Shown: positions 22,497-40,042 of the stretch, piece by piece | Numbering within the stretch: position 1 is the stretch's first letter | How the letters are laid out: each line of letters opens with the position of its first letter | NCBI RefSeq assembly: GCF_025685415.1 | Contig: NZ_JAGSYB010000001.1 | Span: 1,550,001-1,614,000, forward strand | Direction of reading: 5' to 3' | DNA from: Terriglobus aquaticus | GTDB taxonomy: Bacteria; Acidobacteriota; Terriglobia; Terriglobales; Acidobacteriaceae | DNA: 64,000 nt | The notes under the pieces: model-generated | What the model was told of the DNA's origin: nothing | Database searches by the model: none | What the model saw: the letters and a program-made list of their open reading frames with translations, nothing else | Made by a program: the position numbers and the translations under genes

Positions 22497-25400
22497 ATGT
22501 TCGTCCCCAACAGCTCTTCCAGCAAGAAGGGTTTCCTTTCTTCCGGCCGGGCCATGCTCCTGGCCTCAGCCGCCGTCGTGGCTTTCGCCCCGGCAGCTCA
22601 CGCCCAGTTCCGGGCTTCCATCACCGGCACCATCACCGACCCCAGCGGAGCCGTTGTGCCCGGCGCCCAAGTCACGCTGCACGACAACCAGACCGGAAAA
22701 ACCCTCACTTCCACCTCGAACGAAGCCGGCGTTTACAACTTCAACGCCCTGCCGCCGAACACCTTCACGCTCACGGCCACCATGGCTGGGTTCACGACCA
22801 AGACGATCAACAACCTGACCATCACGCCCGAGCAGGCCAACAACATCAACGTGCAGCTGCTGATCAGTTCCAGCAACACCACCGTTGACGTGAGCGCCGA
22901 CGCCGTGTCGCCGCTGGAAACTGCAACGGCGTCCATCTCCGGCACCATCTCGGCGAATGAGATTCAGCATCTGCCGACCGCCGGGCACGACATCTATCAG
23001 TTGGCGCAACTGGCGCCAGGCGCATTCGGAGACGGCCAGCGCAGCGGCAGTGGAGGTACGAACACCCTTCCCGGCCAGCAGGGTCCCGGTGGATCCAGCA
23101 GCACCCAAGGCATCTTCGCTACAGAGAACGGCGCACAGGTGCTGGGCAATGGTGGCCAGTACGAGACGAACGGCTTTAGCATCGATGGCATCAGCACCAC
23201 GTCCGCGGTATGGGGCGGAACGGCGATCATCACGCCCAACGCCGATTCCGTGGACAACCTGAAGATCACGACCAACGGTTACGACGCTGAGTTCGGTCGC
23301 TTCAGCGGAACCAACCTACAGGTAACCACAAAGAGTGGAACGAACCAGTTCCACGGCAGCGCCTTCTTTCGCGCCGTGCGTCCGGGTCTGAACGCCTTCA
23401 ACCGCTACAACGGGCCGGGCTCGCTAGCGCCTTTCGCGCTTGGACCAGGAGTCGCAAACAACAACGTGAACCGCGCGGCCGCACACGGTCTGGTGCGCGA
23501 CACGGCTCGATACAACGACATCGGCGGCAGCATCGGCGGTCCGATTCTGAAGGACAAGATCTTCGCGTTCTTCGCGTACGAGACCATCCGAAACAACTCC
23601 ACCTCTGTTCAGAACTTCTGGTACCAGACGCCGCAATTCCTGGCTCTGGCGCCGAGCGGTTCCATCGCCAATCGCTACACCACGACCACCGGCACCAACC
23701 TGGTCGGCACGAATACGCAGATCACCTCGACGTGCGCTGCTGCAGGTTTGACCGAAGGCCAAGGCTGCCAGACGGTGAACGGCGGCATCGACATCGGCTC
23801 ACCCCTGCGCACCGCTCGCGGCACGCAGGATCCCACCTACGTGAGCACCTCGCAGCCGGGAATCGGCGGTGGCCTGGACGGTGTTCCCGACCTGGTTCAC
23901 ATCCAGAGCTCGACACCGCAGAGCATCACGCAGGTGCAGTACAACGGTCGCATGGACGCGGACGTTACGCAGAAGGACCACCTCGCGTTCACCATCTACT
24001 GGCAGCCGGCGAGCACGGACAACATCAACGGTCCGGCATATGCGTACAACACATATCACCACACCCAAATCAACGAAGCACTGGCACTCATTTACAACCA
24101 CACCTTCTCGTCGACCCTCTTGAACGAGGCGCGCGTGAATGCCGCCGGCTGGCGCTGGAACGAGCTTGCTGACAACCCGGGTGTGCAGTTCGGACTGACT
24201 CGCACGTCCATCAACACTCCGGGAATCACGAACAGCGGGAGCGATCAGTTTGTGCAGCAGGGTACGGCAGGGCCGAGCCACCTGAACCAGTGGACGTTCG
24301 GGTACAAGGATGTTGCGACGAAGATCATCCGGACGCATTCCATCAAGTTCGGCGGTGACGCAACCCAGTTGCACTACCTGCAGGATGCCCTCGGTGCCGC
24401 GAGGCCCAATTTCCAGTTCTCGAACATCTGGACGTTCCTGAACGATGCTCCGTTCGGCGAGTCCGGGCAGTTCAATCGCTTCACGGGTGTGCCGTTCGAC
24501 AACCGCTTCGACATGCGCCAGTGGATCACCGGCGCGTTCGTGCAGGATGATTGGAAGGCGACGCCAAACCTTACGCTGAACATGGGCGTTCGGTACAACT
24601 ACTTCGACTCGCTGTACTCGAAGCAGAACAACCTGCCGCACGTGGTCTTCGGCTCCGGCGCTTCTACCTTCACCGGCCTGAGCCTGGTACGAGGTGGCAA
24701 CGCATGGGTGCCGCAGAAGTACAACTTCGGTCCACAGTTCGGCTTTGCCTACAACCCGGAAATGTTCAACCACAAGGTTGTCGTACGCGGCGGCTATGGC
24801 CTGAACTACAACCAGCTTGAGATCGCCCTATCGGCCAATCTCTCGAACAATGCCGGCGACTCTGTGACGCCGAACTTCGTCGGAACACCGCAGGCGGCGG
24901 ACGCGCGGATCATCTATTCGCTGCCGCAGGACCTGACACAGATCTTCGGATTCGCACCGAACCCGAATACGGTGACAAACTATGGAGCGAACGGGCTGCC
25001 CACCAGCACCGGTCTGCGGCTGACCACGATTCCGTATCACAACAAAACGCAGCAGGTGCACCACTACTCGCTTGAAGTGCAGGGCGACCTGGGCCACCAG
25101 ATGGTCGCCAGCGTGACCTACCAGGGCAGCGCGGCACGGCACCTGGTGTATCACGAAGACCTGTATACCCGCGGCGCTTTCCTGGGTCAGGCTTTCAATC
25201 CTCAGATCAACTACGTCGAGTCGTTCAGCGACAACGGCCAGTCGAACTACAACGCTCTCATCCTTGACCTGAAGCACAACATGGCGCACAACTTCAGCGT
25301 GGATGCGAGCTACACCTGGGCCAAGAGCATGGACGATAACTCCGGCCCGTACACGATGGACCCGTACAGCTACAACCCCGTGTACCTGCGCGCCCGATCA

Positions 25401-26030
25401 GATTTCAACGTGAACAACGCGTTGAAGATCTTCGGTGTGTACTCGCCCAAACTCTACTACGGCGACAACCGCATCATGAAGGTGCTCGCAAACGGCTTCA
25501 ACATCAGTGGCATTTACAACCTGCACTCCGGCTTCCCGTGGACACCGACAGTGAACTACGGAACTCAGGCTTACTACGTCGGCAGCGGCTACAGCACGCT
25601 GCGGCCGACGCGCTATCTGGGCGGAGCCGGTCACAGCACCAGCAATCGCGCATTCATGAGTACGGGTCTCAGTCCGAACTTTCCAAATGGCGGAGCGGCA
25701 TACTATGCGTCGTACAGCGCAAGCCAGTTGCAGCCTTCCGCGTTCCCGAACTTGCCAACTTTCTTTCCGGTTCCAGGTGTGAGCCGCAATGCTTTGAACG
25801 GACCGCACTACCAGGATCTGGACGCCACACTGACCAAGTCTTTCGGCCTGCCGAATAAGTACCTCGGCGAGCGGACGGGACTTGAGTTCCGCGTGGATGC
25901 TTTCAACGTGCTCAACATCACAAACCTGAGCCCAAACATTGACAGCGTGATCACCGATAGCGGCTTCGGCGTGTCCACTGGCGGCCTTGCAGGACGCCAG
26001 GTACAGTTGCAGGCGCGTATCAGCTTCTAA
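22497..26030 (+). CDS. TonB-dependent receptor, Oar-like, with carboxypeptidase-like N-terminal domain
   Basis: The 1177-residue outer membrane protein has a signal peptide ending near PAAHAQ. A carboxypeptidase-regulatory-like beta domain follows (SITGTITDPSGAVVPGAQVT), then a plug (GISTTSAVWGG, FGRFSGTNLQVTTKSGTNQFHG), then a long beta-barrel ending in the C-terminal aromatic RISF. This family is greatly expanded in Acidobacteriota and usually imports oligosaccharides with TonB energy. The start has GGAGG seven bases upstream. Position downstream of LacI operators and before GH39 and GH144 genes suggests substrate-induced uptake. Confidence 0.93.
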   Translation: MFVPNSSSSKKGFLSSGRAMLLASAAVVAFAPAAHAQFRASITGTITDPSGAVVPGAQVTLHDNQTGKTLTSTSNEAGVYNFNALPPNTFTLTATMAGFTTKTINNLTITPEQANNINVQLLISSSNTTVDVSADAVSPLETATASISGTISANEIQHLPTAGHDIYQLAQLAPGAFGDGQRSGSGGTNTLPGQQGPGGSSSTQGIFATENGAQVLGNGGQYETNGFSIDGISTTSAVWGGTAIITPNADSVDNLKITTNGYDAEFGRFSGTNLQVTTKSGTNQFHGSAFFRAVRPGLNAFNRYNGPGSLAPFALGPGVANNNVNRAAAHGLVRDTARYNDIGGSIGGPILKDKIFAFFAYETIRNNSTSVQNFWYQTPQFLALAPSGSIANRYTTTTGTNLVGTNTQITSTCAAAGLTEGQGCQTVNGGIDIGSPLRTARGTQDPTYVSTSQPGIGGGLDGVPDLVHIQSSTPQSITQVQYNGRMDADVTQKDHLAFTIYWQPASTDNINGPAYAYNTYHHTQINEALALIYNHTFSSTLLNEARVNAAGWRWNELADNPGVQFGLTRTSINTPGITNSGSDQFVQQGTAGPSHLNQWTFGYKDVATKIIRTHSIKFGGDATQLHYLQDALGAARPNFQFSNIWTFLNDAPFGESGQFNRFTGVPFDNRFDMRQWITGAFVQDDWKATPNLTLNMGVRYNYFDSLYSKQNNLPHVVFGSGASTFTGLSLVRGGNAWVPQKYNFGPQFGFAYNPEMFNHKVVVRGGYGLNYNQLEIALSANLSNNAGDSVTPNFVGTPQAADARIIYSLPQDLTQIFGFAPNPNTVTNYGANGLPTSTGLRLTTIPYHNKTQQVHHYSLEVQGDLGHQMVASVTYQGSAARHLVYHEDLYTRGAFLGQAFNPQINYVESFSDNGQSNYNALILDLKHNMAHNFSVDASYTWAKSMDDNSGPYTMDPYSYNPVYLRARSDFNVNNALKIFGVYSPKLYYGDNRIMKVLANGFNISGIYNLHSGFPWTPTVNYGTQAYYVGSGYSTLRPTRYLGGAGHSTSNRAFMSTGLSPNFPNGGAAYYASYSASQLQPSAFPNLPTFFPVPGVSRNALNGPHYQDLDATLTKSFGLPNKYLGERTGLEFRVDAFNVLNITNLSPNIDSVITDSGFGVSTGGLAGRQVQLQARISF

Positions 26031-26053
26031 CGCGCTCTCTGTTCGGTCACGAT

Positions 26054-26087
26054 GGGGAGAGTGTGCGGCCCGGCACTCTCCCCTTTG
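26054..26087 (+). terminator. Intrinsic terminator after the TonB receptor
   Basis: A perfect 10-bp stem (GGGGAGAGTG with CACTCTCCCC) with a 10-base loop is followed by TTTG. It lies 24 bases after the receptor stop and separates it from the GH39 gene, though some read-through to the hydrolases is likely. Confidence 0.75.
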
Positions 26088-26147
26088 CTCGCTACACCAC
26101 AGGGCATGTGACCTTTGCTGCAGCCCTGCACCCTTATCGTTAGGACC

Positions 26148-27749
26148 ATGAAGATGAAAACGCGGTACACCGGAACCACTTTGTTCGCCGCCGCTGCACT
26201 GCTCTGCAGTGGCACGTTCCTGCCTGCACAGCAATCACCTGCGGAAGAGCGCATTACGGTGGATGCGTCTGCGAAGACCACACCCTTTCCCCATTTTTGG
26301 GAACAGACCTTCGGTTCTGGCCGCGCGATCCTCTCGCTGCGCGAGAGTTACCGCCGCGATCTGAAGCAAGTGAAAGACGCCACCAACTTCGATTCCATTC
26401 GCTTCCACGGCATCTTGATGGATGAGGTCGGGCTGTATGATCCCGATCGCATGACGAAGAACCCGGGCCTGGAAGCGCAAAAGGCGAATGACGCTTCCAT
26501 CTACAATTTCAGCTACATCGACCAGATCTACGATGGCCTGCTGGACCGCGGCGTGCGCCCTTACGTGGAGCTGAGCTTCATGCCGCGCAAGCTGGCGGCC
26601 GATCCCAGCATCACTCAGCCGTTCTTCTATCGCCCCTTCGTCTCTCCGCCCAGTGACTACGCGAAGTGGGACGCGATGATCACCGCATTGGGTCAGCACC
26701 TGATCGAGCGGTACGGCCTGGACGAGGTCAGCCACTGGAATTTTGAAGTGTGGAACGAACCTAACCTGGACTTCTGGGGTGGCGATCCAAAGCAGGCGAC
26801 GTACTGGACGTTATATGACCATACCGCCCGCGCTCTGAAAGCGGCCTCTCCGCGGCTTCGTGTGGGTGGTCCGGCCACGGCGCAAGCGGCATGGGTGCCT
26901 GACTTTATCAAGCATGTGCACGACAGTCATGTGCCGGTCGACTTCGTCTCCACACACGTGTATGCGAACGACCTGGCCAAGGACGTCTTCGGAACCAATG
27001 AAGACATCCCGCGCAGCACGATGGTGTATCGTGCCGTGAAGAAAGTGCACGATCAGATCGCAGCGTCATCCATGCCGACCCTGCCGCTCTACTTCAGTGA
27101 ATATGGCGCCAGCTACGCGAACGAATCGAACGTGAGCGACTCGCCCTACATGGGACCGTGGCTGGCGAACACGATCCGTCAATGCGACGGCCTGATCCAG
27201 AACATGGCCTACTGGTCCTTCAGCGACGTCTTCGAAGAACAGGGCGTAGTGCGTACACCCTTCTATGGCGGGTTCGGCATCATCGCCGCGGACAACATCC
27301 CCAAGCCCTCGTTCAACGCGTTCACGCTGCTGCACAAGCTAGGTACGCAGCGGATCGCCCTCAAGTCGGAAAGCGCACTGGCGAGCACAGACGGGAACGG
27401 TGCCGTAACGATTGCGCTCTGGAACTATGCCGTGCCGGGCGGGGAAGGTACCACCTACACGAAGCCGCAAGGGCCCGCGGGGCCGGATCGGAGCTTCGAC
27501 TTTCAGCTAGAACACGTCGCGAAGGATGCGACAGTGCAGGTATGGCGTGTGGACCCGACACACGGCAACTCGCTTGCGGCTTTCGACACGATGGGTCGTC
27601 CTTCGGGTTCACTGACGCGCGAGCAGATTCGCACGCTGCAGCAAGCCGCTGCCCTGCCCGCGCCTGAGTCGATGACGCTGCAGAATGGGCATCTGAAGTT
27701 GACGGTACCGGCGTATGGGCTCGCAGTGATCACGCTGCAGAAGCAGTAG
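26148..27749 (+). CDS. Glycoside hydrolase family 39-like secreted enzyme
   Basis: The 533-residue protein has a signal peptide ([20 protein letters not shown]) and a TIM-barrel of the GH39 type. [15 protein letters not shown] carries the acid/base Glu, and [11 protein letters not shown] the nucleophile Glu. A C-terminal beta domain follows. GH39 includes beta-xylosidases, iduronidases and polysaccharide hydrolases, so the substrate is open. A second ATG at 26154 is better spaced (eight bases) from AGGA than the first. The gene lies 12 bases before the GH144-like gene. Confidence 0.85.
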
Positions 27750-27760
27750 AGGTGGGAGAT

Positions 27761-29941
27761 ATGGTCTGGAAGCGAAGCGGTCGGTCCATTTGCCTCGCAA
27801 CCGCGGTTGTATGCGCAACGGTCAGCAGTGTGCCAGCGGCGATGGGGCAGCAGTTTGATCGCTTCGCCCAGCATGTCATCTTTGCCGGCAGTCCGGCGTC
27901 TGAGTACTACTCGTACAGTCGCGGCAGCCTCTCGTCCCCAAGCACGGTGAAACTGATTCATGATCGCCTGCCGCTGGAAACGGCGGAGTTCAAGAGCGGA
28001 CCAAACGCGCTGGAGGTGTCGTGGACCTCTGCCGTAAACGGCGGGTGGGATGTGAGCATCGATCCCATTCAATGGCGCAATGGCGAGTTGCAATGGCAAG
28101 GCAAGACTGTTTCGTTCTGGGTGTGGTCACCGCAGGGTGTGCATGCGGCAGACCTGCCGCGCTTCGCGGTGACTAGTCGCGGCGGAGGTCACACGACTGC
28201 TACCGCGCTGGGCGAGTTCACTGGTGATGTGCCAGCCAAGCGTTGGACGCGCATCGCCGTAGACACGAGCAAGCTTCCCTCGGCTTCGCTGCACCCGTTC
28301 GACCCCGCCGGGCTGAATGGTGTGCTGTTCAGCCAGAACAACGCAGATGGCAAGCCACACACGCTGTACGTGGACGAGATCCGCATCGGCGAGGAAACGG
28401 CCGTGCAAGCCACGCCCTCGGTTCCGAGCGCGCTGAAGGCGACAGGATACGAGCGGCATGTCGACCTGGAGTGGCAGGCACCGGACGATCCGGCCACGAC
28501 GGAGTACGTGATCTATCGCTCCGAAGACAACGGCCCGTATCGGCAGGTGGGTGTGCAACGGTACGGCGTGCATCGCTTCACGGACTGGCTTGGCGCGCCG
28601 GGCAAGACAGCCCGGTATAGCATCTCCGCGCGCGATGCGCAGATGCACGAATCGGCGCGTACCGAGGCAGCGTCCGCTGCCACACGCTCCATGACCGACG
28701 ATGAACTGCTGACGATGGTCCAGCGCGCCAGCTTTCGCTACTACTGGGACAGCGCAGAACCCAACAGTGGCATGGCGCTGGAATCGCAACCAGGACCGGA
28801 CCACCTGGTCGCTATGGGTGCCAGTGGGTTCGGCGTGATGGCTTTGGTGGTCGCGGTCGATCGCGGCTTCATCACGCGGGAGCAGGGTGCCGAACGCATG
28901 CTGCGGATCGCCAACTTTCTGGAGCACGCGGACAAGTACCACGGCGCCTGGCCACACTTTCTGGACGGCCGCACCGGCAAGACAATCTCGCTCTTCGGCA
29001 TCTACGACGATGGCGCCGACCTGGTTGAAACTTCTTTTATGATGGAAGGCTTGCTCACTGCGCGGCAATACTTCAACGGCGACACAGCGCAGGAGCGACA
29101 ACTTCGCGACATCATCAACCGGCTCTGGGGCGGCGTGGACTGGGATTGGTTCCGCGCCACTCCGTTGCATGACGCCCTTTGGTGGCACTGGTCGCCTAAC
29201 TACGCCTTTCACGTTGCCAATCGTCTGCAGGGCTGGAACGAGGTGATGATCACCTACCTCCTCGCAATCGCGTCGCCCACGCACGGCATCCCGGCATCCA
29301 CCTTTCGCACCGGGTATGAACGCGAGGGAAAGGACGCCACAGGCGAGTACGGCATCAAGCACACATACTTCGGTATCCTCCTGGAGCAGGGCTACCTTCC
29401 CGGAACGCCCGGGCCGCTCTTCTTTACGCAGTACAGTTTTATGGGCTACGACCCGCGCGGCTTCCGCGACAAGTACACCAACTACTTTCGAAACAACCGC
29501 AACGAAGCTCTGATGAACCAGGCCTACGCCATTCACAACCCGGGACACTTCAAGGGCTATGGAGCGAACAGTTGGGGCTTTACCGCCGTGGACGGGCCAA
29601 ACGATTCGTACCACGAGTACGGCGCGGGCGAAGACGACGACGGCACCATCGCCCCCACTGGCGCGGTCAGTTCCTACGCCTACACGCCGGAGCAATCCAT
29701 GCTGGCGATCAAGCATTGGTATCGCGATATGGGCAAGAACCTGTGGAACATCTATGGCTTTCGCGACGCCTTCAACGAAAGCCAGAACTGGTACAGCAGC
29801 ACCAACATGGGACTGAACCAGGCACCGCAGGTAGTCATGATTGAGAACGGCCGCACCGGCCTGGTCTGGAAGACATTCATGTCCAGCCCGGAGATTGCGC
29901 CCATGCAAAGAGCGATCGGCTTGGTTCCGGACCGGGATTGA
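27761..29941 (+). CDS. GH144-like (glucoamylase-fold) secreted glucanase
   Basis: The 726-residue exported protein has a signal peptide ending near PAAMGQ and a beta-sandwich resembling a carbohydrate-binding module at about residues 30-200. An Fn3-like domain follows at about 210-300 ([20 protein letters not shown]). The C-terminal domain of about 420 residues is of the putative-glucoamylase (PF10091-like) type, with [42 protein letters not shown] and YAIHNP. Characterised relatives of this type include endo-beta-1,2-glucanases (GH144). The ATG at 27761 is preferred to a GTG nine bases upstream because AGGTGG lies at a good distance. Together with GH39 and the TonB receptor it forms a degradative set. 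Confidence 0.83.
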
Positions 29942-30005
29942 TCGCTAGCGGCTTAAAAGCCTGTGCCGGCGCCCGCCAATCCGCTGGCGAGCTGGCAGAG
30001 ATTCC

Positions 30006-31025
30006 TCAGGGAGCCGGGTTCGCACCGATGTGCGCCTGCTGCACCCAAGGTGCAATCGTCTTCGCAAACAATAGTGAATTCTCCGCCACGTGATCGGGCC
30101 GGATGTGTCCGTTTGCGTCATCGCCCGCGAACCACGACGGCGGCAAAATTAACGGTTTCGCCCCAATGGGCTGCCCCATATGCTCCACGGCATACAGTGC
30201 ATCCGAACACCCGGGAATCGGTGCGAGGTATACCTTGACCTGCGTCTGAGGCGTGGACAACTTCTGCATCAGGGCACGCACGGAAGCATCCCCGGTCTTC
30301 CACATACCGTGCGCGACCAGGTGGCACGTGTCTGGCATGGGCGGGAAATCGAATGCGTAATCCATGTGACCCAGCGTCGCGTCCGTGTTGTGTTCGCGAT
30401 CACCCTGGTGCAAGGTGAACGAGAGAGTGTTCCAACCGAGCGTGCTGTACACCTTTAACGGAAACGTAAGAAACTCGGCCGGCTTGCGCATGGCGAAACG
30501 GAGAATATCTCGCAACGAACCGTGGCGAAACAGCACCTCTTCCCCTTCAAAGAGCAAATCGTGCCGACGGGGATCGTTATAGTCCAGGTTCCACGGAGCG
30601 AAGTAAAGCACCAGCAGGCGTGGCGGCCGGTTGTGTGACAGGTAGCGCTGCAGCGGAATGTCTCCAAGCACAGGAAGACTGCCGATCGTGTTGGGAATGA
30701 CAAGTGCCTTGGTTCCCAACGTGGCGTTCACCACGCGGGGATCGATTCCGATAAACGCGCTGGAGTCGCCGAAGATCACTACGTCCGCGTCGGCATGGCG
30801 CACGTTGTACCCGTAATCCAGCACTGGTCCGAACTTGCTCACACCCAACCGCGAGAATCCTGATCCGGGCATCATCACCAGCGGGAAGGTCAGAAGGTAA
30901 ACCGCTAGTGGTACCGCCAGCACCCAAAGGATCGATCGGGCGAACTGGCGAGGCGTGTACTCCGCCCGCGGATGAAGGATCTGTTCGATCCGTTCCCGTT
31001 CGTTCATCGTTGCGGTCTGCGACAT
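30006..31025 (-). CDS. SGNH-like single-pass membrane protein, O-acyltransfer partner
   Basis: The 339-residue protein has an N-terminal membrane helix (SILWVLAVPLAVYLLTFPLV) and an SGNH-hydrolase-like extracytoplasmic domain. VVIFGDSSAFIGIDPR gives the catalytic-Ser block, and IRPDHVAEN near the C-terminus could give the Asp-His block. Similar proteins (AlgJ/AlgX type) work with MBOAT proteins to acylate polysaccharides. The ATG at 31025 has GGAG eight bases upstream. It follows the MBOAT gene by 60 bases as the last gene of the cassette. Catalytic assignment is inferred from motifs and context. Confidence 0.7.
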   Translation of the reverse strand: MSQTATMNERERIEQILHPRAEYTPRQFARSILWVLAVPLAVYLLTFPLVMMPGSGFSRLGVSKFGPVLDYGYNVRHADADVVIFGDSSAFIGIDPRVVNATLGTKALVIPNTIGSLPVLGDIPLQRYLSHNRPPRLLVLYFAPWNLDYNDPRRHDLLFEGEEVLFRHGSLRDILRFAMRKPAEFLTFPLKVYSTLGWNTLSFTLHQGDREHNTDATLGHMDYAFDFPPMPDTCHLVAHGMWKTGDASVRALMQKLSTPQTQVKVYLAPIPGCSDALYAVEHMGQPIGAKPLILPPSWFAGDDANGHIRPDHVAENSLLFAKTIAPWVQQAHIGANPAP

Positions 31026-31085
31026 GGGTTCGTCTCCCTGGCGAGGTTCAATGGGCTGTATTGCAGCGAGCGGCGGCGACACAAG

Positions 31086-32642
31086 CTAGAACTGGAAATA
31101 AAGGAACGTGGACGGAACCTGCATGCGCACCAGTACCAGCAGCAGAACGGCCCCGAGCACAAAGCCCCATGCCGGCGTCGGTCGCCATGCGATGCGCACC
31201 AGGCTCGGCTGCAGATCGGACGGTGCAAGTTGCAGAGACGGCTTGAACCGCGCCAGCATCTGCTGCGTGTTTGGCAGGCACCAGACGATCAGGTAACCCA
31301 CCACCAGGCCCACCAGCGTGTTTACGCCCAATAGCGAAGCGGAGCGTAGCGGCACAGGACCATGGTGCCGGCCTATCATGCCTGCCAACATGTCCATCGC
31401 CGCGCCTACACCAGCGGCGCGGAAGAAGACCTGCGCGATCAGCACCGCAACATAGGTCAATAACAGGCTACCGATGCCGCGCAACCGGCGGACCAGAGCC
31501 GAAGGAGCGGCCGTGGCCGGACGCGTCGTTCGCCACACCCGCCAGCCATGATTGATGCACAGGTATAGCGCATGCAGCAGGCCGAAGATTACAAACTGCA
31601 GACCAGCACCGTGCCACACGCCTGCCAGAAACAGGGTCACCGTCGTCGGGAACGCCACCAGCTGGACGAACCCCTCCACCGTCGCGGTCGCCTTCCGCGA
31701 GATCTTCTTGCCTTGCCGCACCCGCCTGCGATTGATCCACATGGCGATCGGGTTATAGAGATAGCTCATGATGTAGCGGGTGAGCGTCATGTGCCAGCGC
31801 TGCCAAAAATCGATGATGCTCCGCGACTTGTACGGCGAGCTGAAATTGAGGGGGAAGTTAATTGAGAACATGCGCGCCAGCCCCAGCGCCATGTCCGAGT
31901 AGCCGGAAAAGTCGAAGTACAACTGCAATGAATAAGACAGCACACCGACCCAAGAGCCGCCGGTATGCAGAACTCCCGTGACCAGAAACGCGCGGTCAGC
32001 CTCAGTACTAAACCGATCCGCGAGCACCACCTTTTTGAAGAGCCCCATGACAAACCAGGCGAAGCCCACCGCCATGTCATCGGAGCGCAACCGGAAATCG
32101 CGCCGGGCATGCAACTGGGGCATGATTTCAGCGTGGTGCAGAATGGGACCCGCAATCAGGTGCGGAAAGAACGTTACGAACAGAACGTAGCTGTCCAGGT
32201 CCTGCCGATGCGCCGCACCCTGCTCCAGGTCCACAAGGTATGCGATCTGCGTAAAGGTAAAGAACGAAATGCCGAGTGGCAGAATCAGGTCTGACCAGTT
32301 GAGCGGATGGTGAAACACCGCCGTCACACCGTTGATCCATGGAACGAAATACTTGAAAGCGCACAACACAGCCAAGTTGGCGATGATTGCGGCCCAAAGA
32401 ACGGTCTTGGTCGGCAGCCGGTCTTCAAGCCGGCTCGCAATCAGTGATCCGGCGGCGTAGTTGAACAGGATCGACCCGACCAGCAGCAGTAGGAATCGCG
32501 GACTCCAATATGCGTAGAACGCCAGCGAACTAAGTGCCAGCCAAATGATTACCGCGCGCCGATGCCAGTGCGCCGCCACTTGGTAGCCGAGAAGCACGAC
32601 GGGAAGAAAAACAAACAGAAATGCATACGAGTTGAACAGCAC
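31086..32642 (-). CDS. MBOAT-family O-acyltransferase (AlgI/DltB-like)
   Basis: The 518-residue multi-pass protein starts with LFNSYAFLFVFLPVVLL, typical of AlgI-like enzymes. It holds the invariant His in LAGVWHGAGLQFV and upstream motifs YFDFSGYSDMALG and FWQRWHMTLT. MBOAT proteins of this type move an acyl group across the membrane onto a glycan. I chose GTG 32642, since the frame's earlier part is Arg-rich and non-conserved. GGGA lies four bases upstream. It sits between the ACP gene and the SGNH-like gene, which supply the donor and the likely periplasmic partner. Confidence 0.9.
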   Translation of the reverse strand: MLFNSYAFLFVFLPVVLLGYQVAAHWHRRAVIIWLALSSLAFYAYWSPRFLLLLVGSILFNYAAGSLIASRLEDRLPTKTVLWAAIIANLAVLCAFKYFVPWINGVTAVFHHPLNWSDLILPLGISFFTFTQIAYLVDLEQGAAHRQDLDSYVLFVTFFPHLIAGPILHHAEIMPQLHARRDFRLRSDDMAVGFAWFVMGLFKKVVLADRFSTEADRAFLVTGVLHTGGSWVGVLSYSLQLYFDFSGYSDMALGLARMFSINFPLNFSSPYKSRSIIDFWQRWHMTLTRYIMSYLYNPIAMWINRRRVRQGKKISRKATATVEGFVQLVAFPTTVTLFLAGVWHGAGLQFVIFGLLHALYLCINHGWRVWRTTRPATAAPSALVRRLRGIGSLLLTYVAVLIAQVFFRAAGVGAAMDMLAGMIGRHHGPVPLRSASLLGVNTLVGLVVGYLIVWCLPNTQQMLARFKPSLQLAPSDLQPSLVRIAWRPTPAWGFVLGAVLLLVLVRMQVPSTFLYFQF

Positions 32643-32670
32643 GGTATCCCGCTTTTCCTCCCTGCCTTGC

Positions 32671-32931
32671 CTAGGCCTTGACCTGCCGCGACTCCAGCTT
32701 GTACTCCAGAACGCCCGCAAGTTGGCCCACGTTGTGCAACGACTCCAATTCCGCGCTGTTGAACTTCACACCCATGCGTTCCTCAATGGCAACGATCAGC
32801 CCGATGTGCGCCATGGAGTCCCAGCCGTCGATGTCTGCGGCCGTAGTCTCCGGAGTCAGCGTCAACGTATCGTCGTCAAAAACCTCTCGGAATATCTCCG
32901 TCAGCTCGCGGTACAGGTGTGGGTTGTCCAT
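32671..32931 (-). CDS. Acyl carrier protein
   Basis: The 86-residue acidic protein has the phosphopantetheine site DGWDSMAHIGLI in place of the usual DSL, and four-helix ACP periodicity. It overlaps the end of the FkbH-like gene by 31 bases. This ACP is set apart from fatty-acid ACP by its neighbours and probably carries the acyl group made by the FkbH-like protein to the MBOAT transferase (inference). Confidence 0.88.
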   Translation of the reverse strand: MDNPHLYRELTEIFREVFDDDTLTLTPETTAADIDGWDSMAHIGLIVAIEERMGVKFNSAELESLHNVGQLAGVLEYKLESRQVKA

Positions 32932-34811
32932 GTCTTTCCTCCCTTGATCGTCATCGGTACGTCGCGCGAAGCATAGCTATCCAGCCACAGTTCCCATCGC
33001 GTTGCGTCCTCTTGTTGGCCCAGTGCTGCAAATCCCAGCCGCTGATAGTGATCGCGTACCATGCCATTTTTCGCGGTGGGTCGGTACGTTCCTACAATGC
33101 GGGTGCAACCCATCGCGCGGGCCTGCTCCACCAGCACATTTAGCGTAGCTTCTTCCACGTTACGTCCCAGCACGCGGCAGCTCATCAGCCACGTCTCCAT
33201 ATCCAGCGTAGCCGAGTCGGCGAGTCGTCCCACCAACAGTGCGATCACGCCATTATCGCCATACACGTCCGACAGCCGCAGTTGCAGGGTGAGCACCGAC
33301 GGATCGTCCAGCATCGCCGCGACCTCCGCCTCCGTGTACCGACGCGTCGTCAGATTGAATTGGTTGGTCTTGTTCATCAGCTGAACAATGCGCTTCAGCC
33401 CGATGGAATCGAAGGGGCTCCACGTCAGCTCCATCTGCAGCGCCTGCAGGAATCCACCCATGTCCGTGGTTGATCGACGCAGATTCTCTCGCTCTGCATT
33501 CGAGCGATATAGCTCAGCGCGGGCACGGTCCTCGGCTGTAACCTCCAGGGCCTCGAAGTATCCCGCCGCCGCCAGCGTACCCACATACCCGGAAGGGTCT
33601 TCCGGCAGTTCCGGCACAGCAACCATGGGCAGCTCGCGGCGTACCAGCGCTCGCTCTGCCGGGTTGTCGTCCACGAACACCAGCGAGTCCAATCCGATGT
33701 TCAGGGTCTCCGCGATGTACCGCAGGTTCGTTGCCTTGTCCTGCCAGTTGGCCACAAAACAGGCGATGTGCTTTCGACGCAGCACCATCTCCAAGTGATC
33801 CGCGAATGGCGCCAGGGCGTTCGCCTCATCATTCTTCGAACAAACCGCAAGGATGATGCCGCGCTCTGAAAGCTGCAAAGCATAGCGTTGCAGCGCGACA
33901 TGCGCTTCACCCACTGCGCTTCCCTGCCCCAGCACAATGCCTTCCATGCCGTCGTCTCCGATCACACCACCCCACAGGGTGTTGTCGAGATCGAGCACAA
34001 GGCACTTCGACGATTTGCCCCGCAGCGCTGCCAAGATGCGGCCGACCTGCTCTCCGTACAAATCCGAGACGCGGGGATGAACCTCCTGCTTCGAGCGGTT
34101 CCAAAGTGCAGGTTCAAACCAGCGGGAGAGGCCGTCAATGGCTGCCCACGTATCCACCGTGAGCAGATACACACCTTGTGCCTCTGCTTCGGAACGCAGA
34201 AGGCGATTGACGCTCTCCACCACCGATGCCGGCGACTGCGGGAGTCGGCTTTCCTGATTACCCATGACCGGCCAGTGCACGGGCAGAACGGTCTGCTGGA
34301 CGACAACGCATCCCAGCATTTCCTTTACGGCCCGCCACAGTTCGCGCAGGTCGGCAAGCACCTGTTCCGCACGGCCTTCCCCACCGCTTGCCGCTACGTG
34401 ATGCGCGTCCAGCGCAAGGCACACCACATCGGGTCGAAACGCATGCAGTCCTGAGCTAACATCCGCAGCCTCCTGCCGGTACATGCCGAATGCGTTCTCG
34501 TACACATCCACCAGGACGCCGTGCCGCAACGCACCCACTCGCACCCCGGCATGCAAGTGCCCCAGCGTGGATGACCCCAGGAGCGCCAGGCGAACTACCG
34601 GCAGGCCCGGCAGGTTGCCGTGCGCGGACCGATAACGCTGCACGGCCTTATCAAGCCTGCCGGCCCGCACAAAGTCCATGCGCGTATTGGCGAGCTGTTG
34701 GAAGGTGCTTGCCGCAGAATGAGGCTCTTGCGTTTCCGCAAGCCTCAAGCGATCTACCCAGTCCTGCTGCTCAGGAAGCCACGACAAATTAGACAACCGC
34801 ACTCCGTACAA
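32901..34811 (-). CDS. FkbH-like HAD-IIIC domain protein
   Basis: The 636-residue protein has an SGNH-like N-terminal region (VRLALLGSSTLGHLHAG), a HAD phosphatase domain at about residues 265-420 with KCLVLDLDNTLWGGVIGDDG, and a GNAT-like C-terminus. This is the FkbH architecture. Characterised FkbH enzymes take glyceryl from 1,3-bisphosphoglycerate and load it on an ACP. HAD residues DLDNT, SKND and VFVDDN are present. The start could be TTG 34811, or a later TTG near 34796 with GGAG five bases before. An overlapping ACP gene follows, so an ACP-loading role is well supported by context. Confidence 0.9.
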   Translation of the reverse strand: MYGVRLSNLSWLPEQQDWVDRLRLAETQEPHSAASTFQQLANTRMDFVRAGRLDKAVQRYRSAHGNLPGLPVVRLALLGSSTLGHLHAGVRVGALRHGVLVDVYENAFGMYRQEAADVSSGLHAFRPDVVCLALDAHHVAASGGEGRAEQVLADLRELWRAVKEMLGCVVVQQTVLPVHWPVMGNQESRLPQSPASVVESVNRLLRSEAEAQGVYLLTVDTWAAIDGLSRWFEPALWNRSKQEVHPRVSDLYGEQVGRILAALRGKSSKCLVLDLDNTLWGGVIGDDGMEGIVLGQGSAVGEAHVALQRYALQLSERGIILAVCSKNDEANALAPFADHLEMVLRRKHIACFVANWQDKATNLRYIAETLNIGLDSLVFVDDNPAERALVRRELPMVAVPELPEDPSGYVGTLAAAGYFEALEVTAEDRARAELYRSNAERENLRRSTTDMGGFLQALQMELTWSPFDSIGLKRIVQLMNKTNQFNLTTRRYTEAEVAAMLDDPSVLTLQLRLSDVYGDNGVIALLVGRLADSATLDMETWLMSCRVLGRNVEEATLNVLVEQARAMGCTRIVGTYRPTAKNGMVRDHYQRLGFAALGQQEDATRWELWLDSYASRDVPMTIKGGKTWTTHTCTAS

Positions 34812-34831
34812 AGAGATATGAGATCAACGCT

Positions 34832-34840
34832 TGTTATACT
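34832..34840 (+). promoter_or_regulatory. Extended -10 promoter element
   Basis: TGTTATACT contains TG, one base, and TATACT (five of six), a TGn extended -10. It lies between the divergent FkbH-like and glycosyltransferase genes and points towards the latter. The implied 5' leader is about 220 bases, in which I see no other structure. Confidence 0.4.
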
Positions 34841-35073
34841 CCCACTCGGACGCGGGATTGCCCCAGGCAACCACGCCCCTGTCGCTTCTTAGCGGCACTG
34901 CTTCGCTCGCGGGCAAGACACCGCCTGCACAATTATTGTTCATCTTCCCCACGGTGTATACGTGGCAGAAAACTGCTTTTGCGAGTGCGTCGTGCAGGGA
35001 ATTCCAGCATGCTTGGGCTTTTCATAACGCACGAGTGCCGTGCACTTCACACAGCAGGACAGCGACATTCTCT

Positions 35074-36720
35074 ATGCAACAACCTGATGATTCGCCATTC
35101 GCCTTGGCGCGAAATGACAAGGCATGGATGGCTGCCGGCTTTTTCTTGTCTTTGTCGGTAGCGTACATATTCGGCAGACATCGGATCTTCTGGGAAGACG
35201 AAATGCTCGGATGGATGCTGTTGCACGATCCTTCCTGGTCCCACATGATCTACGCCTGGAAGCAAGGGGCCGACGGCGGCGGATTCTTGTTCTACCTGCT
35301 TGGTCGCGGGTGGTTTGCGATCTTCGGCGCGTCCGATCTCGCCTTTCGCCTTTTTTCCGCGACGTGCTTTGGTGCGGCCTTCTGCATTACGTGGGCTGCA
35401 GCACGGCGCTTCTACAGCGTCGGTGCCGTGGCCTTCGCAATGTTCAACACCTGGTTTTTCAGCCCATCCATCGTCACGCACATGGCCGAGGGCCGATTCT
35501 ACGGCCTGCTCATGCTGAGCACCTCCCTTGTGGTGGCTCTTGCCTTTCGAATTCACGGACAGGAGGCGATTGAACATCGAAGCACACGGACGAGCATGGG
35601 TCTCTGTCTGCTTACGTTCTTTTTGCACGGTCTACTCACCGCCAGCCACACGCTTGGCATTCTGTACAGTGCGGCTTTGCTGCTGGGCGCCATCGTGCTT
35701 GATGCTGGCCGCCGCCGCTTTCAGTGGCCACTTTATGCGGCTGCTGCGGCATCCTGGATTCTGTTGCTCCCGGAACGCACGGCAATACGAGCCTCAGCCC
35801 AGGTGGGCAAGCCCTGGTTTTGGACACGGCCTCCAGGCCCGCTCCGCTTCATCGGCGCCTTCACCAGCTTCTCGCGAGAGATTACGGTGTTGCTGTTTGT
35901 CATGTGCATCCTTGTTTTCGCCTCACAAAATCGGAGCGCAAGACAGACGATCTCGGCAGTCGCGCAAGCGTTCAGCAAACGACGGGCGGTGTATGTCGTT
36001 GTTGGCGCGCTCTGCTTGGTCCCGGTCGGCATGGCGATCGGTTCTCACATCGGCACCTCTCTGTTCATAGACCGCTATCTGCTTCCGCTCAACATCGCTA
36101 CCGCGCTGATTACGATGGAGCTAGTCCACCTGGTGAACTGGCATAACCTCCGCCTCGGGCCCGATTCCGGTAAATATGTGCGGCCTCTGCGTCTTGCCGC
36201 TGGCGGTCTCTTCGCGTTGGCTCTGCTGTACAGCGTATTCGTCGATCTGCGCCAGCACCCGATCCAGTCCTCCAACTACACAGACCGGCTCACCGCACAA
36301 TTACCTAAAGGCGCTCCGGTCGTCTGCGAAGACGCGTGGGCTTTCACCGAGCTTATCGGCAGGCAGCACAGCTCCGGTGTGCTCTACACCTACCTGCTGG
36401 ACTGGCCTCAAAGCATCCGGTCCGACGCTCCGCGCCTGGAAGTCACGCAATACCACCTCATGGAGAACTGGAAGCGTGTCGGCTACTTCTCCGGATCGAT
36501 CTATACGCGTGATGATTTCCTGCAACACCATGATCGCTTTTTCGTCCTCACGCGCCAGATCACACCAGCCGACCGCTTCGGCCGGTTCATCGGCAACCCG
36601 TTGGCAGAGAGATTTGCCCACACGCCCGGCTACCAGGTCAGGATGTACGCCAAGGGCGACCCACACAACCTCGAAGATCCGAACGTCTGGCTAGTATGCC
36701 GGGAGAACTGCAGTCCTTAG
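35074..36720 (+). CDS. Membrane glycosyltransferase, GT-C (ArnT/PMT) fold
   Basis: The 548-residue protein has about twelve transmembrane helices. The first extracytoplasmic loop carries IFWEDEMLGWMLL, with an acidic pair (DE) like the catalytic DE/DxD of GT-C enzymes that use polyprenyl-phosphate sugars. The C-terminal about 150 residues form a soluble extracytoplasmic domain. The frame is open for 80 codons before this ATG but gives non-conserved sequence. It is divergent from the acyl-transfer cassette. An envelope glycan modification shared with that cassette is an inference. Confidence 0.75.
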   Translation: MQQPDDSPFALARNDKAWMAAGFFLSLSVAYIFGRHRIFWEDEMLGWMLLHDPSWSHMIYAWKQGADGGGFLFYLLGRGWFAIFGASDLAFRLFSATCFGAAFCITWAAARRFYSVGAVAFAMFNTWFFSPSIVTHMAEGRFYGLLMLSTSLVVALAFRIHGQEAIEHRSTRTSMGLCLLTFFLHGLLTASHTLGILYSAALLLGAIVLDAGRRRFQWPLYAAAAASWILLLPERTAIRASAQVGKPWFWTRPPGPLRFIGAFTSFSREITVLLFVMCILVFASQNRSARQTISAVAQAFSKRRAVYVVVGALCLVPVGMAIGSHIGTSLFIDRYLLPLNIATALITMELVHLVNWHNLRLGPDSGKYVRPLRLAAGGLFALALLYSVFVDLRQHPIQSSNYTDRLTAQLPKGAPVVCEDAWAFTELIGRQHSSGVLYTYLLDWPQSIRSDAPRLEVTQYHLMENWKRVGYFSGSIYTRDDFLQHHDRFFVLTRQITPADRFGRFIGNPLAERFAHTPGYQVRMYAKGDPHNLEDPNVWLVCRENCSP

Positions 36721-36920
36721 TGACTCGTTAAGGAGCTGGCCTACGCGGTACTTCTGAGCAAGGGACGTCTCTTCGTAGCCCGCAAAACCTGCGCGTCTTC
36801 AATCGGATTGGCACACAGCGACACCACCGCGAATGTATCGACACCGTCTTCCGGACGTCGCTGCGGGCGCCATGCTGTTGTGCCTTGCGCCCGAAGTATA
36901 TGTATTGGCATGTACGCACG

Positions 36921-36954
36921 AAAAAAGAGCGGCACCCCTAGGGAGTGCCGCTCT
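36921..36954 (-). terminator. Intrinsic terminator of the second TonB receptor
   Basis: A perfect 10-bp stem (AGAGCGGCAC with GTGCCGCTCT) has loop CCCTAGGGA. Read on the minus strand it is followed by a run of six T. It lies 23 bases after the receptor stop. Confidence 0.9.
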
Positions 36955-36976
36955 GGACCGGATCAGTTCAGCACAA

Positions 36977-39900
36977 CTAGAAGATGATCTTGCCAATGAC
37001 CTGAAGTTGGCGCGATGACCCCAGATCGCCCACCGGGAAGCGCGTGGACGAAATGACACCCAGGCTCGTGGAACCCACTACAGCGGAAGTTCCCGGGTTT
37101 CCGAAGCTGGGATGGTTAAAGATGTCGAACGCATCGGCACGCAGTTGGAACTTCACCCGCTCTGTGATGGCAGTGTTCTTCTCGATAGAGAAGTCTGTAT
37201 CCGCAAATCCGGGCCCGCGCAGCGCGTTACGGGCTAGGTTGCCAAAGCCCGTCGCGGGCAGTTGGAACGTGCAGTTCGTCGCGGGCGCCGCACAGACCGA
37301 TGGCGTGAACCACTGCACCGTAGACGCAGACGTCCGTGTCTTCGTGTACTGCACAGGGGCCAGCAAGTTTGGGTGCAGCACACCTGACGTACCGGTAAAC
37401 GTCGACGAAGTGGTCACGTTTAACGGATTACCCGTCTGCCACTGCGAGATGCCCGAAAGCTGCCACCCTTCAACCAAGCGGTTGCCCTTGAAAGGCAGTT
37501 GGTAAACAGCATTGAAGGAGATGCGGTGAGTCGTGTCGAAGTCTGAAGGACCGTAGTTCAGGTATGGCCGCGTCGCATCCTGCAGCACGGTACCGCTGAG
37601 CGATCCAGTGTCCAGCGACTTTGAGTAGTTGTAGTTGAAGTTGAAGTTCAAGCCGCTGCGGAACGCCTTGCGCAAGGTGAACCACATGGCGTTGTAGTTC
37701 GACATGCCCACAGAGGACACCTGCGTGATGTTCACACCGCTGATGTTTGCGTTCGGGGAAATCGGGCTGTTCGCCGAAACGGTACGGAATGGCCGCACTC
37801 CTGCAGCGTTCGGCTGATTGATATTCAGCGGGGTCCGCAGATGCTTGCCGACAGAACCGTAATACCCGATGGACGAGGCCACGCCAAACGGCAGTTCCTG
37901 CTGCACGTTGAAGTTGAAGGTCTCGGTGTACGCATTCGACAAGTCGCGCTGCACGCCTGTGATGCCAATGCCCGAAGCACCCGCCGCATTGTAAAGACGA
38001 TTTAAGGGAATTGTCACAGTGGCGCTGCTATACGTAACGCGGTTGGCGAACGGCGGATTGCCATTCAAGCCGCTCACCACATTTGTCTCCGGCTGGTCTG
38101 CCATGAAGCCGTAGGCTCCACGCACCACCGTCTTGTTGGTCCCGAAGACGTCGTAGGCGAAGCCCAGGCGCGGCTCGTAGTTGTAGTTCTGTTTGTAGGG
38201 GCTGTTGCCATAGCCATTCGTGCCCACACGATACAGAGAGGCTGTGGTCGTATCGAATACGACCAGCCGATTGGCGCCGTCCACCGGCGCTCCGTTCCAT
38301 TCATAGCGGAAACCAAGCTCCGCGGTGAGGTTGGGTGTGATCTTCCAGGAGTCCTGTACAAAGCCGCCGACAGCGTTGACATACAGGCGGTTCGACGTCC
38401 GGGTAGGTGTAATGCTGAAACTGTTGGCGCGGCCCGTCTGAAAATTCGCGACCGTGTTAAAGCCGATGGTGCCGGTGTCCTGGGAGAAGTTCACGTTCAG
38501 GAAGCGGCGGAACTCACCACCGAACTTGATGGAGTGCTTGCCCACGGTGTACGTGGCGGTGTCTGAGAAGATGCCGAGCGTGTCGAAGCGGCCTTGCGGA
38601 AAGCCGGAAGGTCCACCGAAGTTGAGGCCCGGCCCGGTGATCGTAATCTGCGGGATGCCGTTGGGTCCGGTTGTACCGGTAGCCAGGCCTAGTGTAGTCG
38701 GGTCGGTCGTGACGTTTGGATTGAAGGCGATGGCTATGCGATTGAAGCCGAGTCGTGCCTCATTGACCAGCCGTGGCGAGAAGACGTGGGTTTCGTTCAA
38801 CGTGAGGATCTGACGCGTCGCAGCGCGATTGTCGCCGAACCCGGGCACAGAATCACCCTGCAGCGTCGGTTCAGTACGCACGTCCTTCTGCAACGCATAG
38901 AAGCCGTGCAAAGTATCGCTGGGTCCGAACGTATGGCTGATGTCGATCGTGCCCTGGTCCGTATTCACCGGGCCTGCCGCGGTGCCGATAAATCGTGCAC
39001 CCGTTGTGTCATTCGCAAGTGGGATATAGGCAAGCAGACGCTGCGCCACCGGATCAGTCACAGCCGCACGCTGCGCTGCGGTAAGGACACCACTGTTCAG
39101 CGCCAACCCCTGCGACTGCCGCAGGCCTTCATAGCTCGCAAAGAAGAACGTGTGATCGCGCCAGATGGGACCACCCAGCGCTGCGCCGAAATTGTGACGC
39201 TTTAGCGCGGGCATGCGAGTGCCGGCAGGGCTGAAGTAATTGCGCGCGTCCAGGGCTTCGTTGCGGATGTAATCGAACACTTCGCCGTGGAACGCATTCG
39301 TGCCGGAGCGCGTGCTCACGTTCACCACGGATCCCGAGGACCGGCCATACTCCGCGGAAAACGTCTGGTTGTTGATCTTAAATTCAGATGTGGTGTTGAT
39401 CGAGGGCTGGAATGTGATCTGGTTCTGCACCATGTCATTCAGGTTCACGCCGTTAATCTGGAAGTTCACGGAGTCTTCGCGATTGCCCGCGGTCACAAAC
39501 GAGTTCGCTCCCAATCCGCGGCTGGGCGAGGTCAGGCTTCCGTTCGCCGGCGCAGTCACGCCACCAGGGGTCAGCACGGTCAGGTCCAGGAAGTGGCGTC
39601 CATTCAGCGGCACCTCCTGCACCGTCACGCGGTCGATCACCTGTCCGACCGTGATGGACTCCGAATCAATCAGTGCAGCCGTGCTCTCTACCTGTACGGT
39701 TTCGCCGGACGAAGAAATCGTAAGCGGCGCATCCAGGTTGGCGTGTGCGTCCACGGCCAGCGTCAAGCGCTGCACGGTGAACGTGCCGAAACCCGTGGCC
39801 GTCACGCTCACGGAGTAGTCGCCGGGTGCCAGCGAAGGCGCTACATACTGGCCCGCTCCGTCGCTGGTGAGCGTGCGCTCTACGCCGGTACCCAAGTTGC

Positions 39901-40042
39901 GAATCACCACCTGCGCACCGGGTAGAGCGGCGCCGGAAGGATCTTTCACCGTGCCGGACAGCGTTGCGGTGGATTGTGCAAAGGTCAAAGCGGGTGCTGC
40001 CAGAACTGCTGCCAGAGCGAGGAACGGAATGCGCTGCTTCAT
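36977..40042 (-). CDS. TonB-dependent receptor, Oar-like
   Basis: The 1021-residue outer membrane protein has a signal peptide (MKQRIPFLALAAVLAAPALT, cleaved near FAQ) and a carboxypeptidase-like domain (ATLSGTVKDPSGAALPGAQVV). The plug contains EFKINNQTFSAEYGRSSGS, and the barrel ends in IGKIIF. The ATG at 40042 has AGGAGG four bases upstream. A 22-bp palindrome lies 52 bases before the start and probably controls it. The substrate is unknown; the divergent neighbour is a secreted peptidase, so a peptide or glycopeptide is as likely as a sugar. Confidence 0.93.
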   Translation of the reverse strand: MKQRIPFLALAAVLAAPALTFAQSTATLSGTVKDPSGAALPGAQVVIRNLGTGVERTLTSDGAGQYVAPSLAPGDYSVSVTATGFGTFTVQRLTLAVDAHANLDAPLTISSSGETVQVESTAALIDSESITVGQVIDRVTVQEVPLNGRHFLDLTVLTPGGVTAPANGSLTSPSRGLGANSFVTAGNREDSVNFQINGVNLNDMVQNQITFQPSINTTSEFKINNQTFSAEYGRSSGSVVNVSTRSGTNAFHGEVFDYIRNEALDARNYFSPAGTRMPALKRHNFGAALGGPIWRDHTFFFASYEGLRQSQGLALNSGVLTAAQRAAVTDPVAQRLLAYIPLANDTTGARFIGTAAGPVNTDQGTIDISHTFGPSDTLHGFYALQKDVRTEPTLQGDSVPGFGDNRAATRQILTLNETHVFSPRLVNEARLGFNRIAIAFNPNVTTDPTTLGLATGTTGPNGIPQITITGPGLNFGGPSGFPQGRFDTLGIFSDTATYTVGKHSIKFGGEFRRFLNVNFSQDTGTIGFNTVANFQTGRANSFSITPTRTSNRLYVNAVGGFVQDSWKITPNLTAELGFRYEWNGAPVDGANRLVVFDTTTASLYRVGTNGYGNSPYKQNYNYEPRLGFAYDVFGTNKTVVRGAYGFMADQPETNVVSGLNGNPPFANRVTYSSATVTIPLNRLYNAAGASGIGITGVQRDLSNAYTETFNFNVQQELPFGVASSIGYYGSVGKHLRTPLNINQPNAAGVRPFRTVSANSPISPNANISGVNITQVSSVGMSNYNAMWFTLRKAFRSGLNFNFNYNYSKSLDTGSLSGTVLQDATRPYLNYGPSDFDTTHRISFNAVYQLPFKGNRLVEGWQLSGISQWQTGNPLNVTTSSTFTGTSGVLHPNLLAPVQYTKTRTSASTVQWFTPSVCAAPATNCTFQLPATGFGNLARNALRGPGFADTDFSIEKNTAITERVKFQLRADAFDIFNHPSFGNPGTSAVVGSTSLGVISSTRFPVGDLGSSRQLQVIGKIIF

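Follow-up and report, generated by a model that had tools for sequence, protein, structure and literature searches.

What does an FkbH-like protein do when its neighbours are a membrane acyltransferase and a membrane-anchored partner? The question is raised by a four-gene cassette of Terriglobus aquaticus (Acidobacteriaceae), found in a stretch of 64,000 nucleotides of contig NZ_JAGSYB010000001.1 (positions 1,550,001 to 1,614,000; hereafter the window). Passages of two papers assign FkbH the formation of glyceryl-acyl carrier protein in polyketide clusters (PMC7489565, PMC3679948). Here FkbH and an acyl carrier protein (ACP) are instead partnered by an MBOAT acyltransferase and an SGNH-fold protein, and we consider it likely that together they form a carrier-protein-fed transmembrane acylation system. 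Among the evidence for this reading, FkbH and MBOAT genes adjoin far more often than expected in two bacterial families, and the linked MBOATs differ from control MBOATs in the segment between their conserved histidines.

The four genes and their products

The genes lie on the minus strand in the order FkbH-like, ACP, MBOAT, SGNH-fold, with the end of the FkbH gene overlapping the ACP gene by 31 bases. Their description in the initial annotation as closely spaced or overlapping is borne out; three of the products score over family cut-offs and the SGNH partner is assigned by its predicted fold. The features, in coordinates of the window, are:

32901-34811, minus strand: FkbH-like protein of 636 amino acids with a TTG start, the proposed ACP loader
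32671-32931, minus strand: ACP, with the phosphopantetheine serine Ser39 at codon 32815-32817
31086-32642, minus strand: MBOAT acyltransferase; the frame is open to 32720, with a likely GTG start at 32642
31614-31790, minus strand: MBOAT inter-histidine segment of 59 residues, net charge +8, without GG[SN]R; proposed carrier-protein docking region
31089-31106, minus strand: FLYFQF, the last residues of the MBOAT and an instance of the FXYXXF acyl-shuttle motif by motif match and alignment
30006-31082, minus strand: membrane-anchored partner of predicted SGNH fold, starting at GTG 31082 or ATG 31025; 358 residues, with Ser107 of GDS and His326

The FkbH-like protein scored 311 bits against TIGR01686 (cut-off 146.65) and matched PDB 3slr_A with E 1.4e-59. 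It is laid out as an N-terminal SGNH-like domain, a HAD-IIIC domain and a C-terminal part with an SCRV motif. Asp274, Asp276 and Thr278 of the HAD DxDxT motif, together with Cys545, are retained in the FkbH of all 39 linked cassettes described below, and Ser39 is present in all 39 of their ACPs. The window ACP matched PF00550 at 3.3e-7, above the Pfam PP-binding cut-off, and the MBOAT matched PF03062 at 5.9e-20, also above cut-off. The MBOAT start was chosen by a codon-usage gene caller and agrees with relatives beginning ..FNS. Across 17 aligned cassette MBOATs, His310 and His370 are invariant, as are F539, Y541 and F544 of the C-terminal FXYXXF. Among proteins of solved structure, DltB was the one sequence relative found for the MBOAT (6bug, E 4e-24; 8jem, E 5e-24). 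None of the four proteins gave an AMP-binding match, a ligase elsewhere in the genome not having been sought, and no Rfam feature reached gathering score around the cassette (28000-38000).

The SGNH-fold partner gave no Pfam or NCBIfam match, and Pfam also failed for most of the relatives tried. Its AlphaFold model (mean predicted local distance difference test score, pLDDT, 85.2) has a single N-terminal helix at residues 44-70. Foldseek alone returned nothing at E < 0.001, and VIA-align of the Foldseek candidates gave SGNH families, with PAF-AH 1vyh at Z 11.1 (180 residues, root-mean-square deviation 3.9) and the peptidoglycan O-acetyltransferase PatB 8tlb at Z 9.0 (154 residues, root-mean-square deviation 3.4). 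DltD, AlgJ and AlgX are absent among the matches listed (the best 50 by VIA-align), which excludes none of them. Residues G105, S107 of GDS, N151 and H326 are invariant in 18 aligned rows. The model is that of an SGNH fold with Ser107 and His326 as candidate catalytic residues, which would face the extracytoplasmic side.

A polyketide role for FkbH finds little in this genome to attach to. FkbH occurs once in the genome, which comprises 4.16 Mb in two contigs, and the ketosynthase model PF00109 matched it at three places, each an open frame of 410-480 amino acids lying outside the window. A modular polyketide context was rejected on this basis, since a single FkbH and three ketosynthase frames amount to no modular polyketide system that would explain FkbH; the earlier claim that no polyketide genes account for it agrees with the lack of ketosynthase matches in the window. 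The cassette does resemble the FkbH-ACP pathways to polyketides and peptides (methoxymalonyl-ACP, tetronates, suomilide) in having an FkbH over cut-off and a stand-alone ACP. It differs from them in that its partner is a membrane acyltransferase, with no polyketide synthase found nearby.

Recurrence of the cassette

We examined 100 loci, 88 of them containing FkbH, and defined a linked cassette as FkbH and MBOAT within four genes of one another. Linked cassettes were found at 39 of the 100 loci and every one has an ACP. Their hosts include Granulicella, Paraburkholderia, Pandoraea, Hyphomicrobium, Sphingomonas, Roseomonas, Lachnospiraceae, Elusimicrobia and an Armatimonadetes metagenome-assembled genome. 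The genes occur in several orders: FkbH-ACP-MBOAT-SGNH, SGNH-MBOAT-FkbH-ACP, MBOAT-SGNH-FkbH-ACP and FkbH-ACP-SGNH-MBOAT. This variation points to a functional set more than to one inherited stretch. The initial annotation had proposed a search for a conserved four-gene order; it is the gene set that recurs, in two families, whilst the order varies.

The excess of FkbH-MBOAT adjacency was estimated in both families. In the window's family (250 genomes), an MBOAT is no more than 6 kb away from 25 of the 109 FkbH places over cut-off, where about 0.25 would be expected. In the family of Sphingomonas aracearum (249 genomes; hereafter the Sphingomonas family), 15 of 30 FkbH places are near an MBOAT, against about 0.08 expected. 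These expectations are rough, assuming mean genome sizes of 4.7 Mb and 3.5 Mb, respectively, and adjacency exceeds them at least 100-fold in both families. Loci were retrieved for 20 of the 30 places in the Sphingomonas family; an MBOAT is present in 14 and an ACP in 13 of those 14.

As controls, we hand-picked from the window's family 20 MBOAT loci that have no FkbH nearby. None has an ACP or VOC match in the surrounding 5 kb or so (less where the contig ends sooner), so the ACP accompanies FkbH and not MBOATs in general. An ACP beside the cassette MBOAT would also argue against a mode that uses acyl-CoA only, as in PatA or AlgI. Amongst eleven genomes with an unlinked MBOAT-SGNH pair, nine have an FkbH over cut-off elsewhere, and G326 (53% complete) has only a fragment.

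On a pSymB-type replicon of Sinorhizobium meliloti, genes for MBOAT, SGNH-like protein, ACP and FkbH adjoin one another. In pSymB of strain 1021 (L199, 7974-9856) FkbH is split into two frames, with the MBOAT, SGNH-like and ACP genes intact; the FkbH query matches many other S. meliloti records in one piece. A profile built from the window SGNH partner missed those of S. meliloti, strain SC52 and Tistrella, which are SGNH-like only by motifs seen by eye.

Other irregular loci were noted. At L088 (6177-7158) the SGNH partner is split over two adjacent frames beside an MBOAT-FkbH-ACP set. At L203 (CP050512.1, 2386-3615) MBOAT and ACP are separated by a protein of 410 residues that carries the annotation TonB-dependent receptor; by eye it has the look of an SGNH-type partner (GGST, DPGH). 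At L140 (G467:C80, about 1458-3050) an MBOAT of the window's clade is interrupted, reading as three frames, and its genome yielded no FkbH, as if the pathway as a whole were in decay. At L219 (9098-10768) the divergent neighbour of an FkbH-ACP-MBOAT cassette is, by eye, an AMP-forming acyl ligase, possibly a second, DltA-like loader.

The MBOAT segment and a proposed carrier-bound donor

The 20 control MBOATs have 39-42 residues between the conserved histidines, and 18 of them carry GG[SN]R there. This segment could be read in 35 of the 39 linked rows (the four unreadable ones are Lachnospiraceae) and GG[SN]R is in none of them. It measures 59 residues with a basic loop in 22 of the 35, 58 residues in one and 33-47 in the others. 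In the Sphingomonas family, where 30 MBOAT places were read and L251 is cut off within the segment, the motif is in the segment of 0 of 15 linked MBOATs and of all 11 readable MBOATs from FkbH-less genomes; L250 has GG[SN]R outside the segment, elsewhere in the protein. Pooled, these sets give 0 of 50 readable linked MBOATs against 29 of 31 controls. Three further Sphingomonas-family MBOATs are unlinked in genomes with FkbH: two carry the motif, and the third, which shares its contig with a cut FkbH piece, lacks it. DltB has 46 residues between its histidines and lacks GG[SN]R. The second MBOAT of genome G000 (L191, G000:C1:3103500-3115500, 5540-6979), which ends in FVYGAF with no ACP or FkbH match nearby, also lacks the motif.

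In a tree of 70 MBOATs the window falls in a 33-row clade with support 100/98, made up of 23 linked rows, 10 unlinked rows and no controls. The tree omits L076 (fragment), L140 (broken) and L106 (weak), and counts L040, with its genes six apart, as linked. Linked rows fall in other branches too, requiring at least eight changes of label. The segment mark is thus probably of multiple origin. We suggest that the change in the segment reflects a switch from acyl-CoA to a carrier protein, for which the segment may be the docking region. On DltB, the contact site of DltC falls within this segment.

The closest known parallel is the Dlt pathway. As set out in passages of PMC12148441, DltB takes D-alanine from DltC and passes it via the tyrosine of the DltX FXYXXF motif to DltD, PatA has FXYXXF fused to the MBOAT C-terminus, and MBOAT-SGNH pathways other than Dlt have no carrier protein and evidently use acyl-CoA donors. 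Cassette and Dlt have four roles in common, namely loader (DltA), carrier (DltC), MBOAT (DltB) and SGNH-like protein (DltD), and would also have in common the carrier-bound thioester donor and the FXYXXF tyrosine shuttle. They differ in the loader, an FkbH/HAD-IIIC protein in place of the ligase DltA, which uses ATP, and in the shuttle, fused to the MBOAT where Dlt has the separate microprotein DltX. The biology differs as well: Dlt D-alanylates the teichoic acids of Gram-positive bacteria and the cassette belongs to Terriglobus aquaticus, one of the Acidobacteriaceae. By curated models the cassette lies outside the Dlt family, its MBOAT scoring 153 bits against the DltB equivalog TIGR04091 (cut-off 375) and its ACP 21 bits against the DltC equivalog NF003464 (cut-off 68). 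By analogy it probably works like Dlt nonetheless, as a variant of MBOAT-SGNH envelope acylation.

With PatAB, AlgIJFX and WssHI the cassette shares an MBOAT with conserved histidines and a C-terminal FXYXXF, and an SGNH partner; at the Paraburkholderia locus L034 it even lies beside AlgF and ALGX genes. Those systems differ in using acyl-CoA without a carrier, as passages of PMC12148441 describe, and the linked cassette MBOATs lack GG[SN]R. The sequences would fit a Dlt-like donor side combined with a PatA/AlgI-like shuttle, with FkbH replacing the ligase. FXYXXF stands at the very end of 27 of the 39 linked MBOATs and of all 15 linked Sphingomonas-family rows.

From the genes, folds, motifs and co-occurrence described here, and by analogy with FkbH, Dlt and PatAB chemistry, we infer each transfer step below, together with glyceryl as the acyl group and a glycan as the acceptor. 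The donor for FkbH would be an acyl phosphate of glycolysis, with 1,3-bisphosphoglycerate the likeliest; FkbH would remove the phosphate and load the acyl, most likely glyceryl, onto the phosphopantetheine of ACP Ser39; the acyl phosphate of 1,3-bisphosphoglycerate would supply the energy. Acyl-ACP would dock at the cytoplasmic side of the MBOAT and the acyl would pass to Tyr541 of the C-terminal FLYFQF. From this shuttle it would reach Ser107 of the SGNH partner and end as an ester on an exported glycan, which a neighbouring GT-C glycosyltransferase may extend. The route from glycolysis through ACP and across the membrane to a glycan is that of the initial annotation. Its outline gains from recurrence in two families and from the envelope-acyltransferase motifs, whilst the substrate, acyl group and acceptor would follow by analogy. 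The step from ACP to MBOAT, which had been put forward as an inference, is better supported than was supposed, by the known Dlt chemistry (in passages of PMC12148441) and by the segment difference between linked and control MBOATs.

Several observations weigh against a dedicated carrier-fed machine. In several genomes FkbH and the MBOAT-SGNH pair of the window's clade are far apart, and G383 has kept the pair without FkbH. Six of the 20 retrieved Sphingomonas-family FkbH loci have no MBOAT match. An ACP match is absent at 15 of the 88 FkbH loci (L048 and L053 end at a contig edge; L070, L155 and L156 come from genomes with an unlinked MBOAT-SGNH pair), and FkbH-ACP also occurs beside other transferase types, such as WcbI with SDR in Niveispirillum. 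The unlinked pairs, the pair of G383 and the other partners of FkbH-ACP would suit two independent neighbouring modules, with FkbH-ACP serving something else and MBOAT-SGNH O-acetylating a glycan from acetyl-CoA like PatAB or AlgIJX. We regard this as improbable given the adjacency excess in two families, the lack in linked MBOATs of the motif found in most controls, and the frequency of FkbH, which is present in 14 of the 16 genomes whose SGNH partner scores above 100 bits but in 89 of all 250, a comparison uncorrected for kinship.

The sequence marks have exceptions of the same adverse kind. GG[SN]R is missing from 2 of the 20 controls and from all 11 unlinked MBOATs close to linked ones. 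FXYXXF is absent from the very end of 12 of the 39 linked MBOATs (L036 is frame-broken), and 11 of these 12 form one separate branch that would need another shuttle. As the motif ends all 20 controls, it marks the MBOAT type and not carrier use. The window's type of SGNH partner was recognised in only 12 of the 39 cassettes; the partners elsewhere are ALGX (L034), GDSL-like (L090) or by-eye calls, and some were not found. Lastly, the predicted SGNH and GT-C folds are evidence of fold, not of activity. Against all of this, we still prefer the carrier-fed machine.

Acyl group, acceptor and significance

Enzymes that could modify a carrier-bound acyl group accompany FkbH at other loci. A methylmalonyl-CoA epimerase (MCE)-like VOC protein shares the strand of FkbH and lies no more than about 3.1 kb from it at 18 of the 88 loci, which are all the matches of the VOC model, five of them being its seeds. 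The VOC protein of L034 scored 42 bits against the methylmalonyl-CoA epimerase model, below the cut-off of 114.95, and annotated VOC proteins adjoin FkbH in two plasmid loci. MaoC and SDR domains lie between ACP and MBOAT in L076, MaoC follows the MBOAT in L036, and an S-adenosylmethionine methyltransferase stands beside FkbH in Paroceanicella and Tistrella. A second, short VOC-like kind, recognised by eye from LHHVGI near its start and VQ near its end, was seen beside Sphingomonas-family cassettes (L217, 3807-4205; L220, 4074-4475; L226, 3766-4167).

These accessory enzymes suggest tailoring of the carrier-bound acyl group at the loci that have them, and would fit a 2-hydroxyacyl thioester better than an acetyl one. 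They raise the possibility of the same machine moving something other than plain glyceryl, such as lactyl, O-methylglyceryl, epimerised L-glyceryl or another 2-hydroxyacyl, depending on lineage; bryostatin work reportedly describes lactyl loading by FkbH-like domains. We hold this to be a minority possibility. No epimerase-like, methyltransferase or MaoC/SDR gene lies between or directly beside the window's four genes, so plain glyceryl is the first guess there, and FkbH proteins are described as glycerate loaders in passages of PMC7489565 and PMC13122637. For this genome we put plain glyceryl at about an even chance. Equally balanced, in our estimate, is a broader reading in which MBOAT-SGNH machines switched from acyl-CoA to a carrier several times, losing GG[SN]R and altering the inter-histidine segment each time, and became FkbH-fed with glycolytic acids that a VOC epimerase, a methyltransferase or MaoC/SDR enzymes could tailor on the carrier, which would make a third donor class.

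FkbH is expected to make D-glyceryl units. Gellan carries ester-linked L-glycerate, according to passages of the review PMC9104527, which name no enzyme for the glycerate esters on gums. An epimerase would then be needed, and the VOC protein is a candidate: hypothetically, it could convert D- to L-glyceryl on the ACP and so supply gellan-type L-glycerate esters. Sphingans such as gellan resemble the proposed product as polysaccharides with glycerate esters, and members of the Sphingomonas family carry the cassette; a gellan producer was not identified among the genomes, and the link is hypothetical.

The acceptor is probably an exported glycan. The clearest polysaccharide context is that of Paraburkholderia L034 (1066-12206), where FkbH, ACP, MBOAT and VOC genes lie with an NfrB-like glycosyltransferase bearing a cyclic di-GMP motif, NfrA_C, AlgF and two ALGX genes, in an NfrA/NfrB-like exopolysaccharide operon. 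NfrA is part of the phage N4 receptor. In the window, a candidate for making the acceptor is encoded divergently from the cassette:

35074-36720, plus strand: divergent GT-C membrane glycosyltransferase, possible maker of the acceptor

GT-C glycosyltransferases act outside the cytoplasmic membrane. The model of this one (pLDDT 83.9) matched ArnT 5f15 by Foldseek (E 3.2e-6), and by VIA-align Pmt4 came top (Z 23.2), with ArnT at Z 21.5 over 443 residues. A GT-C neighbour also adjoins the cassette in the two nearest relatives, L031 (48.6%) and L032 (45.2%). The case for its part in the system is weakened by its distribution in the family search: of the 250 genomes 27 have a relative, and the window genome is the one among these where it adjoins a cassette. 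On either side of the locus lies a large CarboxypepD_reg outer-membrane protein (22497-29941; 36977-40192), and a GH39 protein and a putative glucoamylase-family enzyme lie between one of them and the cassette, a neighbourhood of glycan use.

Fold relatives of the GT-C protein include ArnT and protein glycosyltransferases, which would suit an acceptor other than a polysaccharide: a membrane glycolipid, a glycoprotein or a small secreted glycoside. For the peptide suomilide, passages of PMC13122637 propose an MBOAT as the enzyme that acylates its hexose. We think such an acceptor doubtful beside the NfrA/NfrB/AlgF/AlgX-type operon that houses the Paraburkholderia cassette; Pandoraea loci show a comparable run of genes, a likeness by size and order alone. 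An exported glycan remains our preferred acceptor. In the passages of open-licence literature that mention FkbH and MBOAT together, they appear in cyanobacterial peptides only, with FkbH in a nonribosomal peptide synthetase and MBOAT in sugar acylation, which does not imply absence from print. A passage of PMC7099621 mentions in passing that a flagellar glycan locus of Campylobacter includes a gene with an fkbH domain.

If the proposed system is real, such a branch, widespread, fed by a carrier and with its shuttle fused to the MBOAT, would change the rule, as stated in passages of PMC12148441, that only Dlt has a carrier. From the segment between the histidines one would be able to predict which donor an uncharacterised MBOAT uses, and the cassette would supply candidate genes for the glycerate esters of bacterial gums. 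It would also link central glycolysis directly to the esters of the cell envelope.

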